From Oscillospiraceae bacterium (GTDB lineage: Bacteria; Bacillota; Clostridia; Oscillospirales; Oscillospiraceae), in the NCBI GenBank assembly GCA_031262405.1, contig JAISHS010000035.1, forward strand, positions 35,094-99,093: a stretch of DNA of 64,000 nucleotides, in the 5' to 3' direction. This document shows, one piece after another, positions 22,057-63,431 of this stretch. Position numbers and translations under genes: made by a program. The first letter of the stretch is position 1. Every line of letters starts with the position of its first letter. The notes under the pieces are model-generated. The model searched no databases. It was given only the letters and a program-made list of their open reading frames with translations, and was not told where the DNA came from.

Positions 22057-23172
22057 TTAGATCAAATTGTCCTCGGTTTCCTTATCGAACAGATGCGCGG
22101 CATTTCCGGGAATCGTGAAGTAAATCGTCTCGCCGCCGCGATAGGTAACGACGTTTGCGTCGCCCATATCGGATACGGGGCGAATGATAACAACTTCCTT
22201 CTCGCCCGCCATGACGTGCAGATGGACGCTGCTTCCCATCATCTCGCTGAAGACGACCTTGCCCTCAATGCTTTCGGGCGTTTTGTCCGCGACCAGAATG
22301 TGCTCGGGTCTCATGCCGACGATAACAGCCTTCGGCGCGGCGTTCGCGGCCTTAAGCTCCGCCTGCTTCTCCTCCGGCAGCTCGATGGTCTTGCCCAGCA
22401 CCACGGCGCTGTAGACGCCGCCGTCCTTTTTGAGCTCGCCCTCGAAGAAGTTCATCTGCGGTGAGCCGATGAAGCCCGCCACGAACAGATTCTCCGGATG
22501 ATGGAACACTTCATTGGGAGTTCCAACCTGCTGAATAAAACCGTCCTTCATGATGACGATCCGATCGCCCAGCGTCATGGCCTCGGTCTGGTCGTGCGTG
22601 ACATAGACAAAGGTCGTGTTGATCCTCTGGCGCAGCTTGATAATCTCCGCGCGCATCTGGTTGCGCAGCTTCGCGTCAAGGTTGCTGAGCGGTTCGTCCA
22701 TGAGGAAGACCTGCGGCTCGCGGACGATTGCGCGGCCGATCGCGACGCGCTGGCGCTGACCGCCGGAGAGCGCCTTCGGCTTGCGCTGGAGGTACTCAGT
22801 GATGTCCAGAATTTCCGCCGCACGCCTTACCGCCGCGTCAATCTCCGCCTTGGGCATCTTGCGCAGCTTAAGCGCGAAAGCCATGTTGTCATAGACGGTC
22901 ATGTGGGGGTAGAGCGCATAGTTCTGGAACACCATCGCGATATCACGGTCCTTCGGGGCAACGGCATTAACGAGTCTGTCGCCTATGTACAGATCGCCGT
23001 CCGTTATCTCCTCGAGTCCCGCAATCATGCGCAGTGTGGTGGATTTCCCGCAGCCCGAGGGACCTACGAGGACGACAAATTCTTTGTCTTCGATTTCAAG
23101 GTTGAAATCGTCGACCGCCACCACGTCTTTGTCGTACACTTTCTTGATGCCTTTCAGGGTAACAGTTGCCAT
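22057..23172 (-). CDS. Carbohydrate ABC transporter ATP-binding protein, UgpC/MsmX/MalK type
   Basis: Walker A GPSGCGKST, ALSGGQRQRVAIGRAIVREPQVFLMDEPLSNLDAKLR; MATV start at 23172. Confidence 0.9.
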   Translation of the reverse strand: MATVTLKGIKKVYDKDVVAVDDFNLEIEDKEFVVLVGPSGCGKSTTLRMIAGLEEITDGDLYIGDRLVNAVAPKDRDIAMVFQNYALYPHMTVYDNMAFALKLRKMPKAEIDAAVRRAAEILDITEYLQRKPKALSGGQRQRVAIGRAIVREPQVFLMDEPLSNLDAKLRNQMRAEIIKLRQRINTTFVYVTHDQTEAMTLGDRIVIMKDGFIQQVGTPNEVFHHPENLFVAGFIGSPQMNFFEGELKKDGGVYSAVVLGKTIELPEEKQAELKAANAAPKAVIVGMRPEHILVADKTPESIEGKVVFSEMMGSSVHLHVMAGEKEVVIIRPVSDMGDANVVTYRGGETIYFTIPGNAAHLFDKETEDNLI

Positions 23173-23534
23173 GTTTCCCGGCTCTGACATACCCGCCTTT
23201 GCGATGATATGCCTCGCCCGCGCCCGCACTAAGTGGCTTGGGCTTTACGACAGGTCTCCACGCTGCCGCACCGTGAGCCAAACGGATTATATCCTCCTTC
23301 TTTTTCGACCGACGGCCAATAGAGTGGAGTTGCTCCGCCAGCCGCATTATTAGGGCAGGACAAGGGGATTAGTCCAACCCAAGGATATTATGACAGGTTT
23401 TCAATAACATTGCAAGTCCCTCGGCAAATTTTCTGTTAGTTTTTTTCTGCTTTTTACGCGCTCGGGCTTCGGCAAACAAAAGTTGACATACGAGAAGTTT
23501 TTATGCTAGTATACTCAGTGGCTATTTGGGTTAT

Positions 23535-39343: not shown

Positions 39344-39353
39344 CTGGCCGCAG

Positions 39354-39437
39354 TCCTTCGTCCACCGTCCCTCGTCCCTCGTCCACCGCCCCTCGTCCAC
39401 CGTCCCTCGTCCCTTGTCCCTTGTCCCTCGTCCACCG
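39354..39437. repeat. 12-copy degenerate heptanucleotide tandem repeat (TCCCTCG/TCCACCG)
   Basis: tccttcg tccaccg tccctcg tccctcg tccaccg cccctcg tccaccg tccctcg tcccttg tcccttg tccctcg tccaccg. Confidence 0.9.
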
Positions 39438-39524
39438 TCATTGCGGGCTTGACCCGCAATCCCCCACGGCTTCCGTGTCATTCTGCAATAACAGGGGGAT
39501 TCCGTGTCAAGCACGGAATGACGG
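39436..39524. repeat. REP-like composite palindromic element, copy 1
   Basis: cgtcattgcgggcttgacccgcaatcccccacgg ... gggggattccgtgtcaagcacggaatgacgg. Confidence 0.85.
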
Positions 39525-46260: not shown

Positions 46261-46375
46261 GTCATTCCGCTCGGCGGCGCAGCCGCCGTCATTCCGTGCA
46301 ACTCCTCCGTCATTCCGTGCTTGACACGGAATCCCCCCGTTTTAGGGCGGAGATTGCGTGGGGGCCCGCAATGAC
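46261..46375. repeat. REP-like composite element, copy 2
   Basis: gtcattccg...gtcattccgtgcttgacacggaatccccccg...gggggcccgcaatgac. Confidence 0.8.
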
Positions 46376-46384
46376 GATGTCCAC

Positions 46385-52829: not shown

Positions 52830-55800
52830 ATGCAAACTCTCACCGAGGCGATATTTCTCGACAAAAACCTAGCCGCGCTCCCGACCTATGTCGAAGGGGG
52901 CGCGCTTCCCGCGCTCATCGTCGGGCCGGGCGAGCCTGCGCGAGCGACTCTCTGCGCCGCCCTGCGTGAGCGCACAAAAAGACCCGTCTTCATAATCTGC
53001 GCGGACGAGGCCGCCGCAGGGAGAATCTCCGGCGATTTAGAGCGGGTGCTGGGAGAGACGCCGCTAAAGCTGCTCGAGCGCGACTTTAATTTTTACGGCG
53101 CCGAGGGAGTCTCCCGCGACGCCGAGAGAGCTCGGTTAGCTACGCTCTCGAGCCTCGCGGAGGAAACCGCCGGAGTCGTCGTCAGTACGGTTTCGGCACT
53201 GCTCCAACGCACCGCGCCGAAGGAAAGGCTGCTCAAGGCCGTCCTGCGCCTTCAAGAGGGAGGAGAAATTTCCCCCGAAGCCGCCGAGGCGGCTCTTTTG
53301 CGCTGCGGCTATTCCCGCAGCTTTCAGGTAGAGGCTCCGGGGCAGTTCTCGCGCCGAGGCGGAATCTTGGACTTTTACTCCCCGGCCTACGAAAAGCCCG
53401 TCCGCTGTGAATTCTGGGGCGACGAAATCGACTCTCTGGGCTTCTTCGAGCCGGACGCCCAACGCCGCACGGAGCGCATAACCCACTGCGAGGTACTGCC
53501 CGCCTGCGAAATTCTCCCCGCCCTCGGCGACGACGAAATCTTGGGGGAAAAGCTCTGGGCGCTCATAAAAACGACCGAGAAGCAGGGCAAAACGAAGCTC
53601 GCGCAAACCCTGCGCGAGGACGCCGAAAAGCTCTCGGAGGGTTTAGATATCGCGGCTGCAGACCGCTACGCCGACCAGATTTACCCCGAATTTGCAACCG
53701 CAATCGACTATATCCACGAGGACGCCATAGTTTTTCTCGACTCCCCCGGAAAAATCAGCGAGAGCGCGGCGGTTTTTGCCCGACAGCAAGCCGAGGCCGT
53801 AACCCTTCTCATCGAGAGCGGACTGCTCGTCGGCAAGTCCGCGCGCTTTACCCTGCCTTGGGAGAGCGCTGTGCTTCAGCTGGAGCGCTTCGCCGTTATA
53901 ATGGGAGACTCCTTCATAACCGGGCGCCAGAGCCTCGAGCCGCGCAGTATAATAAACGCGCTCGTAAAGCAGCTGCCGGGCTACGGCGGCTCCCTTGAGA
54001 CCGCGCTCGACGACGTTCGCCATTACGCCGCCGCGAGCTTTAGAACCGTCGTTCTCGCGTCAGACGCCCGCCGTGCCGCGCTTCTCGCGGAGAAGATAAA
54101 AGAAGCGGGGCTCCCAGTCGCCCTCGATCTGGAGCTTAGTTCTCTGCCCGAGCCGGGATGTGCCCGCGTCGCCCTGGGCTCGCTCTCCGCCGGTTTCGAG
54201 CTGCCGGACGCGCGCTTTTCCGTCCTGACCGACAATCAACTGCTCGGCGGTGGCCTGAGACGGCACAAAAAGCCCAAAAAATCCGCTAAGGGCGCGGGAA
54301 TCGCAAGCTACATGGACCTCACCGTCGGCGACCTCGTGGTGCACGAGCACCATGGTCTCGGCCGCTTCGCGGGAATCTTCAAAATGCCGGTGGACGGCGT
54401 GGAGAAGGACTATATAAAAATCAGCTACGCGGGGTCTGACAGTCTCTATGTCCCCGCGACAGCCCTAGACCTCGTCTCGAAATACATAGGCGGCGGGGGA
54501 GAGGACCGCATAGTCCGCCTGAATAAGCTCGGCGGAACGGACTGGGCGCGGGCAAAGAGCCGCGCGAAGGCCGCCGCGAAGGAGCTTGCCCAGGGTCTCG
54601 TAAAGCTCTATGCCGAGCGCAGCCGCCTCGAGGGTCACGCCTTCGCGCCGGACAGCACCTGGCAGACAGAGTTTGAAGAGCACTTCGGCTGGCAGGAGAC
54701 CGAGGATCAGCTTAGATGCTCGGAGGAGATAAAGCGCGACATGGAAAAATCCGTCCCGATGGACAGACTTCTCTGCGGCGACGTCGGCTACGGCAAGACA
54801 GAGGTTGCCCTGCGCGCCGTCATGAAGTGCCTGCTGGACGGCAAACAGGCGGCGATTTTGGTGCCGACAACGGTGCTGGCACAGCAGCACTTTCAAACCG
54901 CCATGCAGCGTTTTCACGGTTTCCCCGTGGAGATAGAGCTGCTAAACCGCTATCGCACCCCCGCCCAAGTCAGGCAGACCCTCACAAATCTCAAGCTCGG
55001 CAAAACCGACCTCGTAATCGGCACTCACAGGCTGTTGCAAAAGGACGTCGTCTTCAAATCGTTGGGACTTCTTGTCGTTGACGAGGAACAGCGCTTCGGC
55101 GTCGGACACAAGGAGCGGCTAAAGGAGATGAGCCGTCAGGTCGACTGCCTCACCCTCACCGCGACGCCCATACCCCGAACGCTCAACATGGCGCTCTCGG
55201 GTCTGCGCGATATGTCCACAATCGAAGAGCCCCCGCGCGACCGCCAGCCGGTGCAGACCTATGTTATGGAGCACGACTGGGGCGTCGTCTGCGATGCGCT
55301 CCGCCGCGAGATAGCAAGGGGCGGTCAGGCATATTACATCCACAACCGCATAGAGACCATAGACCGCGCCGCCGCAAGACTGCGCGAGAGACTCCCGGAT
55401 GCGCGCTTTGCCACCGCCCACGGGAAAATGGATGAGCAGCAGCTCTCCGGCGTCATGGAGAGCTTTGTCGGCGGCGAAATCCAAATCCTCGTCTGCACGA
55501 CGATAATCGAAACCGGCATGGACATACCCAACGTAAACACCCTCATAATAGAGGACGCCGACAAGCTGGGGCTGGCACAGCTGCACCAGCTTCGCGGCCG
55601 CGTCGGACGCTCGACCCGCCGCGCCTCGGCATATCTGACCTTCCGCAAGGACAAGGTCCTAACCGAAATCGCCGAAAAGCGCCTCGGCGCCATCCGCGAA
55701 TTTGCAGAGTTCAACTCCGGCTTCAAAATCGCAATGCGCGACCTCGAGATTCGCGGCGCGGGCAATCTTCTCGGCGCGGAGCAGAGCGGCCACCTCACGG

Positions 55801-56360
55801 ACGTGGGCTACGATATGTATCTGCGCCTGCTGGAAGAGGCCGTGCTCGAGGAGCGCGGCCTGCCCCCGCGCGTGCGCTCAGAGTGCAGCGCGGATATTTC
55901 CGTCTCGGCAAATCTCCCCGACAGCTACGTAGAAAGCCAGGAGCAGCGCATGGATCTCTACCGGCGAATCGCCCTCATCCGCACGGAGGAGGAGGCCGAC
56001 GACATGACCGACGAGCTCATCGACCGCTTTGGCGAGCCGCCGTCGCCCGTAATCGCGCTCATAAATGTCGCCCTCCTGCGCGGCGAGGCGGCGAAGGCCG
56101 GAATAATCGAAATCTCCCAGAAGGAGGGGCGGCTTCGCTTTACCCTTGCGCAGTTTGACCTGGAGACCGTCTCCGCTCTGGAGCAAAGAGCAGACTATAA
56201 AGGCCGCCTTAAGGTCGAGCCGGCCGCAAAGCCCACCCTGAGCCTAAAGCTGCGCTCAAACAAGCAGATAATAGAGCAAGCGCGGCGCTTCATCAAAGCT
56301 TACGCCGAAGCGCGGATAACAGATAATAGCTCTCTTCCACCTTCGTCATTGCGGGCTTGA
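52830..56360 (+). CDS. mfd: Transcription-repair coupling factor
   Basis: 1176 aa; DYIKISYAGSDSLYVPATALDLVSKYIG, RLLCGDVGYGKTEVALRA, VDEEQRFGVGHKERLK. Confidence 0.96.
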   Translation: MQTLTEAIFLDKNLAALPTYVEGGALPALIVGPGEPARATLCAALRERTKRPVFIICADEAAAGRISGDLERVLGETPLKLLERDFNFYGAEGVSRDAERARLATLSSLAEETAGVVVSTVSALLQRTAPKERLLKAVLRLQEGGEISPEAAEAALLRCGYSRSFQVEAPGQFSRRGGILDFYSPAYEKPVRCEFWGDEIDSLGFFEPDAQRRTERITHCEVLPACEILPALGDDEILGEKLWALIKTTEKQGKTKLAQTLREDAEKLSEGLDIAAADRYADQIYPEFATAIDYIHEDAIVFLDSPGKISESAAVFARQQAEAVTLLIESGLLVGKSARFTLPWESAVLQLERFAVIMGDSFITGRQSLEPRSIINALVKQLPGYGGSLETALDDVRHYAAASFRTVVLASDARRAALLAEKIKEAGLPVALDLELSSLPEPGCARVALGSLSAGFELPDARFSVLTDNQLLGGGLRRHKKPKKSAKGAGIASYMDLTVGDLVVHEHHGLGRFAGIFKMPVDGVEKDYIKISYAGSDSLYVPATALDLVSKYIGGGGEDRIVRLNKLGGTDWARAKSRAKAAAKELAQGLVKLYAERSRLEGHAFAPDSTWQTEFEEHFGWQETEDQLRCSEEIKRDMEKSVPMDRLLCGDVGYGKTEVALRAVMKCLLDGKQAAILVPTTVLAQQHFQTAMQRFHGFPVEIELLNRYRTPAQVRQTLTNLKLGKTDLVIGTHRLLQKDVVFKSLGLLVVDEEQRFGVGHKERLKEMSRQVDCLTLTATPIPRTLNMALSGLRDMSTIEEPPRDRQPVQTYVMEHDWGVVCDALRREIARGGQAYYIHNRIETIDRAAARLRERLPDARFATAHGKMDEQQLSGVMESFVGGEIQILVCTTIIETGMDIPNVNTLIIEDADKLGLAQLHQLRGRVGRSTRRASAYLTFRKDKVLTEIAEKRLGAIREFAEFNSGFKIAMRDLEIRGAGNLLGAEQSGHLTDVGYDMYLRLLEEAVLEERGLPPRVRSECSADISVSANLPDSYVESQEQRMDLYRRIALIRTEEEADDMTDELIDRFGEPPSPVIALINVALLRGEAAKAGIIEISQKEGRLRFTLAQFDLETVSALEQRADYKGRLKVEPAAKPTLSLKLRSNKQIIEQARRFIKAYAEARITDNSSLPPSSLRA

Positions 56361-56474
56361 CCCGCAATCCCCCCGTATAGAGGACAGAGGCGGAAGCCGT
56401 AGGGGATTCCGTGTCAAGCACGGAATGACGGAAAAACCGCACGGAATGACGGGGTGAGGGGCAGATAATAGATA
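56318..56474. repeat. REP-like composite element copy 3, flanked by cagataatag motifs
   Basis: acagataatag...cgtcattgcgggcttgacccgcaatcccccc...ggggattccgtgtcaagcacggaatgacgg...cagataatagat. Confidence 0.85.
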
Positions 56475-56559: not shown

Positions 56560-57738
56560 ATGAAAAAGAAAATATTGCCGCTTGTTCTGGCCGCGCTGCT
56601 GTGCGTCGCAGCCTTCACCGGCTGTCAGAGCAGCGAGCTGAAGGCATATTCGGACGAAGCCGCGGAGTCTACGGACCCCGCAGCCGAAGCCAGCACCGAA
56701 CCCGTGATGGTCACGGATTACACCCCCGTGTATGAGAGCTATCCCCCGGACACGGTCATGGTCACCGTAAACGGGCTGGATATCACTTGGGGGGACCTGT
56801 TCTCATGGTACTACCGCGATGTTACCAGCGTAGAGTCCTACTACGGCCCGATTACGGACTGGGACGCCGCGTCAGCCTTTGACGAAACCCAAACCTACCG
56901 CGAGTATATTACCGCAAGCGCCCTCGAAATGGAAAAGCTCTATCGCGTCGTGGAGAGCCACGCTGCGCAGGAGGGCGTGGAATTGACCGAGGAAGACCTT
57001 GCGGATATCGAGGAGGCCTGGGAGAACAATGTCGCCAGCTCCGGCGGCACTGAGGAGGACTACATCAAATCCCTCGAGAGCACATTTCTCTCCCGTGAAA
57101 GATTTGATTATCTGACTCGGACAAGCGCGCTGGCACGCGCCCTTCAATATGACAAATACGGCGAGAATGGCGAAAAGCTCTCCGATGAGGACGTCTTAGC
57201 GAAGGCCAATGAGATGGAATATATGCGCGCCAAGCACATCCTGTTCAAAACCACAGACGACGAAGGCGCCCCCCTGTCGGACGAGGAAATCGCCGAAAAG
57301 CGCGCGCAAGCCGAAACCCTCCTCGAGGAGCTTTCCGCCATAACAGACTACGACGAGCTTGGCAAAAGGTTTGACGAGCTGATTGTGCAATACGGCGAGG
57401 ACCCGGGAATGATCAGCTATCTGGACGGCTACACCTTCCTGCCCGGCGAGATGGTAGAGTCCTTTGAAACCGCGACGAAGGAGCTGGAGCCGGGAGAAAT
57501 CTCCGGCATAGTCGAGAGCGACTACGGCCTCCACATTATCCTCCGCCTGAAGCTCGGAGCCAACCTCGCCGTAGAGGCCACCGGCGAAACCTTGGCATAT
57601 TTTATAGCTCAGGAGCTTTTCAACACCGAAATGGAAAACTGGGAAGAGGCCGCCGAGGTGGTCTTCTCGGAGGAGTACGAGTCAATGGACCTCGCCGCCC
57701 TGTTTGCCAAAGCAGTTACCAAAGAAGCAGAGGGATAA
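56560..57738 (+). CDS. Peptidylprolyl isomerase lipoprotein (parvulin/PrsA-like); ORF opens at 56512
   Basis: Lipobox AAFTGCQ; YMRAKHILFKTTDDEGAPLSDEEIAEKRAQAETLLEEL...YGLHIILRLKL. Confidence 0.87.
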   Translation: MKKKILPLVLAALLCVAAFTGCQSSELKAYSDEAAESTDPAAEASTEPVMVTDYTPVYESYPPDTVMVTVNGLDITWGDLFSWYYRDVTSVESYYGPITDWDAASAFDETQTYREYITASALEMEKLYRVVESHAAQEGVELTEEDLADIEEAWENNVASSGGTEEDYIKSLESTFLSRERFDYLTRTSALARALQYDKYGENGEKLSDEDVLAKANEMEYMRAKHILFKTTDDEGAPLSDEEIAEKRAQAETLLEELSAITDYDELGKRFDELIVQYGEDPGMISYLDGYTFLPGEMVESFETATKELEPGEISGIVESDYGLHIILRLKLGANLAVEATGETLAYFIAQELFNTEMENWEEAAEVVFSEEYESMDLAALFAKAVTKEAEG

Positions 57739-57915
57739 TTGATAATTGAGAATTGAGAATTGACAATTATTGAGCCGCAAAGCGGCACATAATAATCGCG
57801 CACGGCGCGGGACGATGAAAGGGCTACCTTAAATGAAAGGCAGCCCTTTTAAATCTTGTCGCGCTTCGCGCGACACCATTAATTGTCAACTGTCAATTGT
57901 CAATTATCAATTGCG
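57735..57915. repeat. MITE-like element bounded by inverted AATTGNN heptamer arrays, with internal terminator hairpin
   Basis: taattga taattga gaattga gaattga caattat ... aagggctaccttaaatgaaaggcagccctt ... taattgt caactgt caattgt caattat caattgc. Confidence 0.75.
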
Positions 57916-61380: not shown

Positions 61381-61423
61381 ATAATTGTCAATTGTCAATT
61401 GTCAATTCTCAATTCTCAATTGG
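61381..61423. repeat. Heptamer array, AATTGNN family
   Basis: taattgt caattgt caattgt caattct caattct caattgg. Confidence 0.85.
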
Positions 61424-62467: not shown

Positions 62468-62580
62468 CGTCATTCCGGGCTTGACCCGGAATCCCCCACG
62501 GCTACGGTATACCAAGGAATCTCTGGGAGATTGCGGGTCAAGCCCGCAATGACGAAGGCGGGAGCCCACTATTATCTGCC
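62468..62580. repeat. REP-like composite element copy 4, with ctattatctg motif
   Basis: cgtcattccgggcttgacccggaatcccccacgg ... agattgcgggtcaagcccgcaatgacg ... ctattatctg. Confidence 0.85.
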
Positions 62581-63062
62581 CTAATTCGCCTTTCCATGAG
62601 CACCACGTTGCGCCAGACCCCATTGCGATCCTTCGCCAGCCGCTCGCGGAACCCGATGCTTCTGAAGCCGCACTTCTCGTGCAGAGCAATACTGCCCAGA
62701 TTCTCCTGGAAAATAACCGACTGCAAGGACCAAAACCCCGCCTTGTCGCTCTCGGCACACAGCTCGCGCAGCAGAGCCTCGCCGACGCCCTGCCGCTTGT
62801 GATTGACGTCGACATAGACGCTCAGCTCCGCGACCCCCTTGAAGCAGGCTCTGTCCGAATATGGCAGCAGCGCCGCCCATCCGGCAACCCCCCTGTCCCC
62901 CTCTGCAACCAGCCTACACCCCCTCAGGTGCGCCCTGTCCCACACCTCAAAAGACGGCAAAACCGTCTCAAAAGTTGCCATATCGGACAAAATCCCCTGA
63001 TAATATATCTCGGCGACCCGGCTCCAGTCGCCCTTTTCCATCTCCCTAATTGCAATATCCAA
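62538..63062 (-). CDS. GNAT family N-acetyltransferase (phosphinothricin acetyltransferase-like)
   Basis: IAIREMEKGDWSRVAEIYYQGI...ELSVYVDVNHKRQGVGEALLREL. Confidence 0.9.
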   Translation of the reverse strand: MDIAIREMEKGDWSRVAEIYYQGILSDMATFETVLPSFEVWDRAHLRGCRLVAEGDRGVAGWAALLPYSDRACFKGVAELSVYVDVNHKRQGVGEALLRELCAESDKAGFWSLQSVIFQENLGSIALHEKCGFRSIGFRERLAKDRNGVWRNVVLMERRIRADNSGLPPSSLRA

Positions 63063-63320: not shown

Positions 63321-63401
63321 TAATAAACAAAATGAAAAAAATGAAAGAAATAAACCTAAGATAAAATAAACCTAAACAAAATGCGCTTTTACCAATTATC
63401 T

Positions 63402-63431
63402 AATATCTTTTATCTATTATCTATTATCTGC
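63402..63431. repeat. Heptamer array, TATCTNN family
   Basis: ttatcta atatctt ttatcta ttatcta ttatctg. Confidence 0.8.

Follow-up and report, generated by a model that had tools for sequence, protein, structure and literature searches.

Protein C-termini encoded by a CGTC-tagged palindromic repeat at mfd and a GNAT acetyltransferase gene of an Oscillospiraceae bacterium

Repetitive extragenic palindromes (REPs) of the CGTC-2 type were described by Di Nocera et al. 2013 (PMC3733652) as short elements with a CGTC end, an 8-bp stem starting with AT and a 5-nt loop; they form HH heterodimers, are mostly intergenic by gene 3' ends and have no dedicated transposase. Their 3-base tails fit CCA in most, though not all, cases. 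Some copies lie inside coding regions or at their ends, so that CGTC REPs within genes, C-termini included, were already described in 2013, and the Rickettsia palindromic elements RPE-4 and RPE-6 are CGTC REPs of the same superfamily (PMC3733652). Here we analyze a 64,000-nt stretch ("the window") of an Oscillospiraceae genome (contig JAISHS010000035.1, positions 35,094 to 99,093), in which a repeat that, judged by its sequence, fits the CGTC-2 type crosses the 3' end of mfd and that of a gene for a GNAT acetyltransferase. We conclude that the C-terminal tails of the two proteins are real and repeat-derived and, with a probability of roughly 0.88, that a CGTC REP heterodimer came to overlie both gene ends and so removed the native stops. 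Such a tail adds one more case to an already described phenomenon; the unexpected part is the distribution of the repeat across phyla and its link to termite guts.

The genome is a draft of 1.44 Mb (78% complete, 38 contigs). It was examined in stretches around the repeats, and the counts of strict arms and of tails refer to those stretches. The features at the two genes are as follows.

52830..56360, + strand: mfd gene (Pfam TRCF, CarD_TRCF_RID, DEAD, UvrB_inter), stop codon inside a REP arm
56316..56360, + strand: repeat-encoded Mfd tail ITDNSSLPPSSLRA with its stop, missing in congeneric orthologues
56320..56329, + strand: CAGATAATAG (AGATAAT heptamer) preceding the REP
56344..56370, + strand: CGTC REP arm, GCGGG stem, loop CTTGA
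56404..56430, - strand: partner arm, CCGTG stem, tagged ends outward (HH heterodimer)
56462..56471, + strand: second CAGATAATAG, 3' of the REP
from 56476, + strand: flank shared with congeners (TGTTTACAAA) picks up again past the REP
62538..63062, - strand: GNAT acetyltransferase gene (Pfam Acetyltransf_1), stop codon inside a REP arm
62538..62582, - strand: repeat-encoded GNAT tail RADNSGLPPSSLRA with its stop, in place of a conserved end containing GGCDC
62569..62578, - strand: CAGATAATAG preceding the REP
62528..62554, - strand: CGTC REP arm, GCGGG stem
62468..62494, + strand: partner arm, CCGGG stem (HH heterodimer)

Mfd ends with DNSSLPPSSLRA and the acetyltransferase with DNSGLPPSSLRA, each followed by the stop. 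Both tails are translated from a AGATAATAG heptamer, which contributes their initial DN, and then from the CGTC-tagged REP. In the tail frame the arm reads TCA TTG CGG GCT TGA; therefore, the stop of both genes is provided by the repeat. The preliminary description of the locus gave correct coordinates, strands and reading frames, and correct ends for the two proteins, but it took the tails to be identical and encoded by one shared junction. We found a single residue of difference between the tails (DNSS in Mfd, DNSG in the acetyltransferase), and that the two 41-nt junctions, CAGATAATAG-CTCT-CTTCC-A-CCTTCGTCATTGCGGGCTTGA at mfd and CAGATAATAG-TGGG-CTCCC-G-CCTTCGTCATTGCGGGCTTGA at the GNAT gene, share frame and stop and are identical at 35 of 41 positions. 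The Mfd tail begins at 56316, two bases before the start given earlier (56318). In folding, the dimers scored z of -4.6 (mfd) and -5.6 (GNAT) against shuffled sequences.

We compared the two proteins with their relatives. Mfd orthologues were present in all 60 relatives considered. No REP arm was detected in 11 congeneric genomes, compared to 70 in this genome; similarly, the 84 tandem AGATAAT copies of this genome had no counterpart in the congeners. All orthologues of Mfd, of the acetyltransferase and of an M42 peptidase (see below) with a readable C-terminus were without the tail, so a tail kept in orthologues from repeat-free genomes, which would have spoken against the earlier proposal, was not what we saw. 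Within the genus, Mfd stops near residue 1160 with variable sequence, in most cases directly followed by TGTTTACAAAT..ACTTG, and here the downstream flank of the congeners reappears beyond the REP. Only a variable end was lost from Mfd. The acetyltransferase had lost more, since its 11 orthologues retain a GCDC-containing end and the conserved GGCDC end is missing here. The earlier proposal that a REP donated the tails is supported, with the amendment that at the GNAT gene a conserved end was replaced and not merely extended. The locus is a concrete case in which a short repeat can replace the stop of a gene and even a conserved C-terminal segment.

In the mechanism that we propose, a CGTC-tagged REP heterodimer together with a 7-bp tandem repeat (AGATAAT) would have landed on the end of mfd and on that of the GNAT gene, crossing both 3' termini and thereby removing the native stop codons. 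As both CGTC ends of an HH dimer point outward, a flanking gene always enters an arm CGTC-first. One of the three possible frames then runs TCA TTS CGN GCT TGA (Ser-Leu/Phe-Arg-Ala/Thr-stop), so that translation stops within five codons. We infer that insertion or copying of the repeat, rather than slow divergence, removed the stops; our view of whether heptamer or REP came first, of near-neutrality and of the copying agent is likewise putative. The tail probably results incidentally from the position that the repeat took, and it is most likely close to neutral.

Several points weigh against this account. The congeners are only about 70% identical to the Mfd of this genome, and the comparison set holds no same-species strain. 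Accordingly, none of the genomes compared is a repeat-free strain of the same species, and no clean empty site was seen among them. The orthologue comparison covered Mfd, the acetyltransferase and the M42 peptidase. Direct repeats of CAGATAATAG flank the mfd copy, but the GNAT copy is not bracketed by such a pair; a target-site duplication, suggested by the pair at mfd, was thus rejected.

The repeat itself has a regular structure. An arm is CGTC-ATTGCGGG-CTTGA-CCCGCAAT-C, with an unpaired CGTC at one end (CGTCATTGCGGG and variants), an 8-bp stem beginning with AT around a 5-nt loop (ATTGCGGG-CTTGA-CCCGCAAT) and the variant stems CCGTG, CCGGG and CCGGA. In the stretches read there were 66 strict arms, of which 62 had complete pairing in the variable stem portion; five stem sequences occurred, and the loop was CTTGA in 57 arms and CTCGA in 9. 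All 18 strict dimers joined one GCGGG arm to one CCGGA, CCGGG or CCGTG arm with the CGTC ends outward. The window contains 7 arm matches (0 in 100 shuffles) and 9 matches to AGATAATAG (0.22 expected), while about 70 arms in the whole genome compare to 0 for a reversed control pattern. Rfam gave no match above the gathering score at the element; two microRNA matches, far under that score, were discarded.

These features agree with the published CGTC-2 REPs in the CGTC end, stem, loop, heterodimer form, position by gene 3' ends and lack of a dedicated transposase. On the other hand, the host here belongs to Bacillota, and the main text of PMC3733652 makes no mention of Firmicutes; the bases after the stem, mostly CCC in this genome, are CC or CCCC more often than CCA; and copies are attached to heptamer arrays and to 21-bp half-units. 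The likeness to Rickettsia palindromic elements drawn in the preliminary description was apt, given that RPE-4 and RPE-6 are CGTC REPs (PMC3733652). Those elements, of which RPE-1 is longer, also lie in frame within coding genes. Unlike them, the cases in this genome are C-terminal only (n=4), and we found no internal insertion in a recognisable gene in the stretches around the repeats; the nearest parallel comes from termite-gut Bacteroidota, where insertions are internal (in MnmE and other genes). REPs of the GTAG type with their REP-associated tyrosine transposases (RAYTs) are also short palindromes in HH pairs beside genes, but the end here is CGTC and no Y1 transposase was found in this 78%-complete genome.

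Entered from its CGTC end, the arm encodes SLRA-stop, VIAGLTRNP or HCGLDPQSP, depending on the frame. Since the first alone has a stop within the arm, any gene that ends within the arm ends at that TGA, as all seven confirmed C-terminal cases do. For the same reason we did not use the frame bias as evidence. Besides Mfd and the acetyltransferase, two proteins of this genome carry a repeat tail in the same arm frame, for a total of four: an M42 peptidase ending with NETPPSFHATPPSFRA and the SLH protein ending with CATPPSLRATPPSFRT. Orthologues of the peptidase end near residue 340, where in this genome TPPSFHATPPSFRA comes next; its tail has no heptamer. The 21-bp half-units keep the frame and so yield repeated TPPSF.A; it is the repeat, half-units included, that determines which residues the tails contain. 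Eight further open reading frames without a recognisable domain were not counted as cases.

A search for a mobiliser produced no consistent partner. A Y1 transposase (PF01797) was not found in this 1.44-Mb, 78%-complete genome, nor in 5 of 15 other arm-bearing genomes, among them the one richest in arms; a full arm lay near only 1 of 12 Y1 loci of the other arm-bearing genomes. A RAYT partner was rejected, being absent here and inconsistently present elsewhere. The REP dimer had no match in phage and plasmid collections. Separately, the exact arm was observed in 8 viral contigs of IMG/VR.

Within the phylum of the window, the arm was detected in 2 of 399 sampled genomes (this one and one other; 397 were without it). 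In contigs of GTDB (84,980 species), an exact 29-base match to the arm was found in at least 100 stretches from at least 35 genomes of at least four phyla, Bacteroidota, Bacillota, Fibrobacterota and Actinomycetota among them. Of 35 arm-bearing genomes listed, 11 are from confirmed termite-gut bacteria. Candidatus Symbiothrix dinenymphae, a symbiont of termite-gut protists, is counted among these 11, together with the genomes coded Co191, Emb289, Th196 and Md513. Another 21 appear to be from the same termite series, putatively, and three (RGIG4305, SRR11784281, STD2_268) evidently have a different or unstated source. The codes Co191, Emb289 and Th196 denote termite hosts (PMC7024585, Table 1) and Md513 denotes Mastotermes darwiniensis (PMC12483993); for scale, one survey recovered 2,223 bacterial metagenome-assembled genomes from 51 termite species (PMC11481507). 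The order in which the GTDB genomes were scanned is unclear, so we treat the termite-gut link as a strong lead that falls short of a measured enrichment. In the open-licence literature we found no paper on such repeats in termite-gut bacteria.

The strict copy number varied from 1 to 226 across 15 of the arm-bearing genomes. In genomes of two other phyla FolC, IspH and IspD end with SLRA-stop. In termite-gut-type Bacteroidota the REP is read in frame inside MnmE, MetH, IlvD, MiaA and an ABC-F gene. Thus the repeat is translated within conserved genes, C-terminally in this genome and internally in MnmE, where an alignment to solved MnmE sequences places the insert HCGLDPQSPDFEIAGQARND between the NKSD and SAKN motifs; this residue-level placement was made for MnmE only, with MetH, IlvD and MiaA placed by gene identification. 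For annotation, an ending like PSSLRA or PPSFRA, or an insert like HCGLDPQSP..IAGQARND, should be taken as repeat-derived and not as a conserved motif. We also observed, at three loci of a Chitinispirillales genome, a REP dimer within a larger, MITE-like (miniature inverted-repeat transposable element) inverted repeat ending in GGGGCTGTCTCAAAA..TTTTGAGACAGCCCC.

How the identical arm came to be in several phyla is the question on which the alternatives fare best. Convergence in a small sequence space without shared spread, helped by intensive sampling of termite guts and by long persistence of the arm in symbionts of protists, has about even odds in our estimate: stem variants and spacers differ from genome to genome, and the unclear order of the scan bears on its 100 or more stretches. 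Still, the exact 29-base match is common to the four phyla, at least 11 of the 35 genomes are from termite guts, and the arm is missing from 397 of the 399 genomes sampled in the phylum of the window. We suggest only tentatively, as the somewhat less probable case, that a CGTC REP has spread between phyla in the termite gut by an unrecognised mobiliser, rewriting protein ends and loops in many resident lineages. Unrelated genomes of one habitat with the exact arm, beside arm-free relatives, offer a starting point in the search for the agent that moves CGTC REPs.

For the tails themselves, we considered whether the heptamer arrays did the damage, with AGATAAT slippage removing the stops and the REP merely adjoining. 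Arrays with a 7-bp unit are common in the window, where period-7 tandem repeats of several units dominate the repeats, and three of them hold stop codons:

57737-57768, 57881-57913 and 61383-61422: heptamer arrays (units AATTGAG, AATTGTC) in which the genes for PpiC, RNase HI and asparaginase have their stops

RNase HI gains the ending AIDN from its array, where congeneric orthologues end otherwise, and repeats supplying gene ends are thus a wider feature of this genome. The DN at the start of both tails points the same way. However, the M42 tail contains no heptamer, and in all four cases the REP gives the stop and most of the tail residues, which makes slippage unlikely as the cause. The arrays resemble the TAACTGA direct repeats of Beggiatoaceae, Cyanobacteria and Bacteroidetes (PMC4679880) in being intergenic 7-bp tandem arrays of patchy distribution; they differ in their units (AGATAAT, AATTGAG, AATTGTC, GTCCCTC) and in that several sit at the 3' ends of genes, away from start codons.

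It is very improbable that the tail is a peptide under selection (serving degradation, localisation or docking) which the repeat carries to proteins that gain by having it. The ending S-L/F-R-A/T is indeed common to the four proteins here and to three in other genomes, but this is expected when only one frame has a stop inside the arm; the residues follow straight from the arm sequence, the tails vary (PSSLRA, PPSFRA, PPSFRT), the proteins are functionally unrelated, and their orthologues work without tails. An artefact of assembly or binning, with contigs misjoined at repeats, might be feared in a draft of 38 contigs and 78% completeness, yet we give it the least credence of all, because arms occur on many contigs and mostly far from contig ends, the sequence 3' of mfd runs on into a flank matching congeners, and similar tails appear in unrelated assemblies.

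Elsewhere in the window, two more REPs were located:

39436..39523: third REP heterodimer (GCGGG and CCGTG arms), with no gene end within
46308..46377: fourth REP, a CCGTG arm with a degraded GCGGG-type partner

Further period-7 tandem repeats (units GTCCCTC, ATTATCT, AATTCTC) were observed at 39353-39439, 63395-63429 and other intergenic sites. A malK-I RNA motif (Rfam RF03069, 131 bits) is located at 23167-23348 on the - strand.
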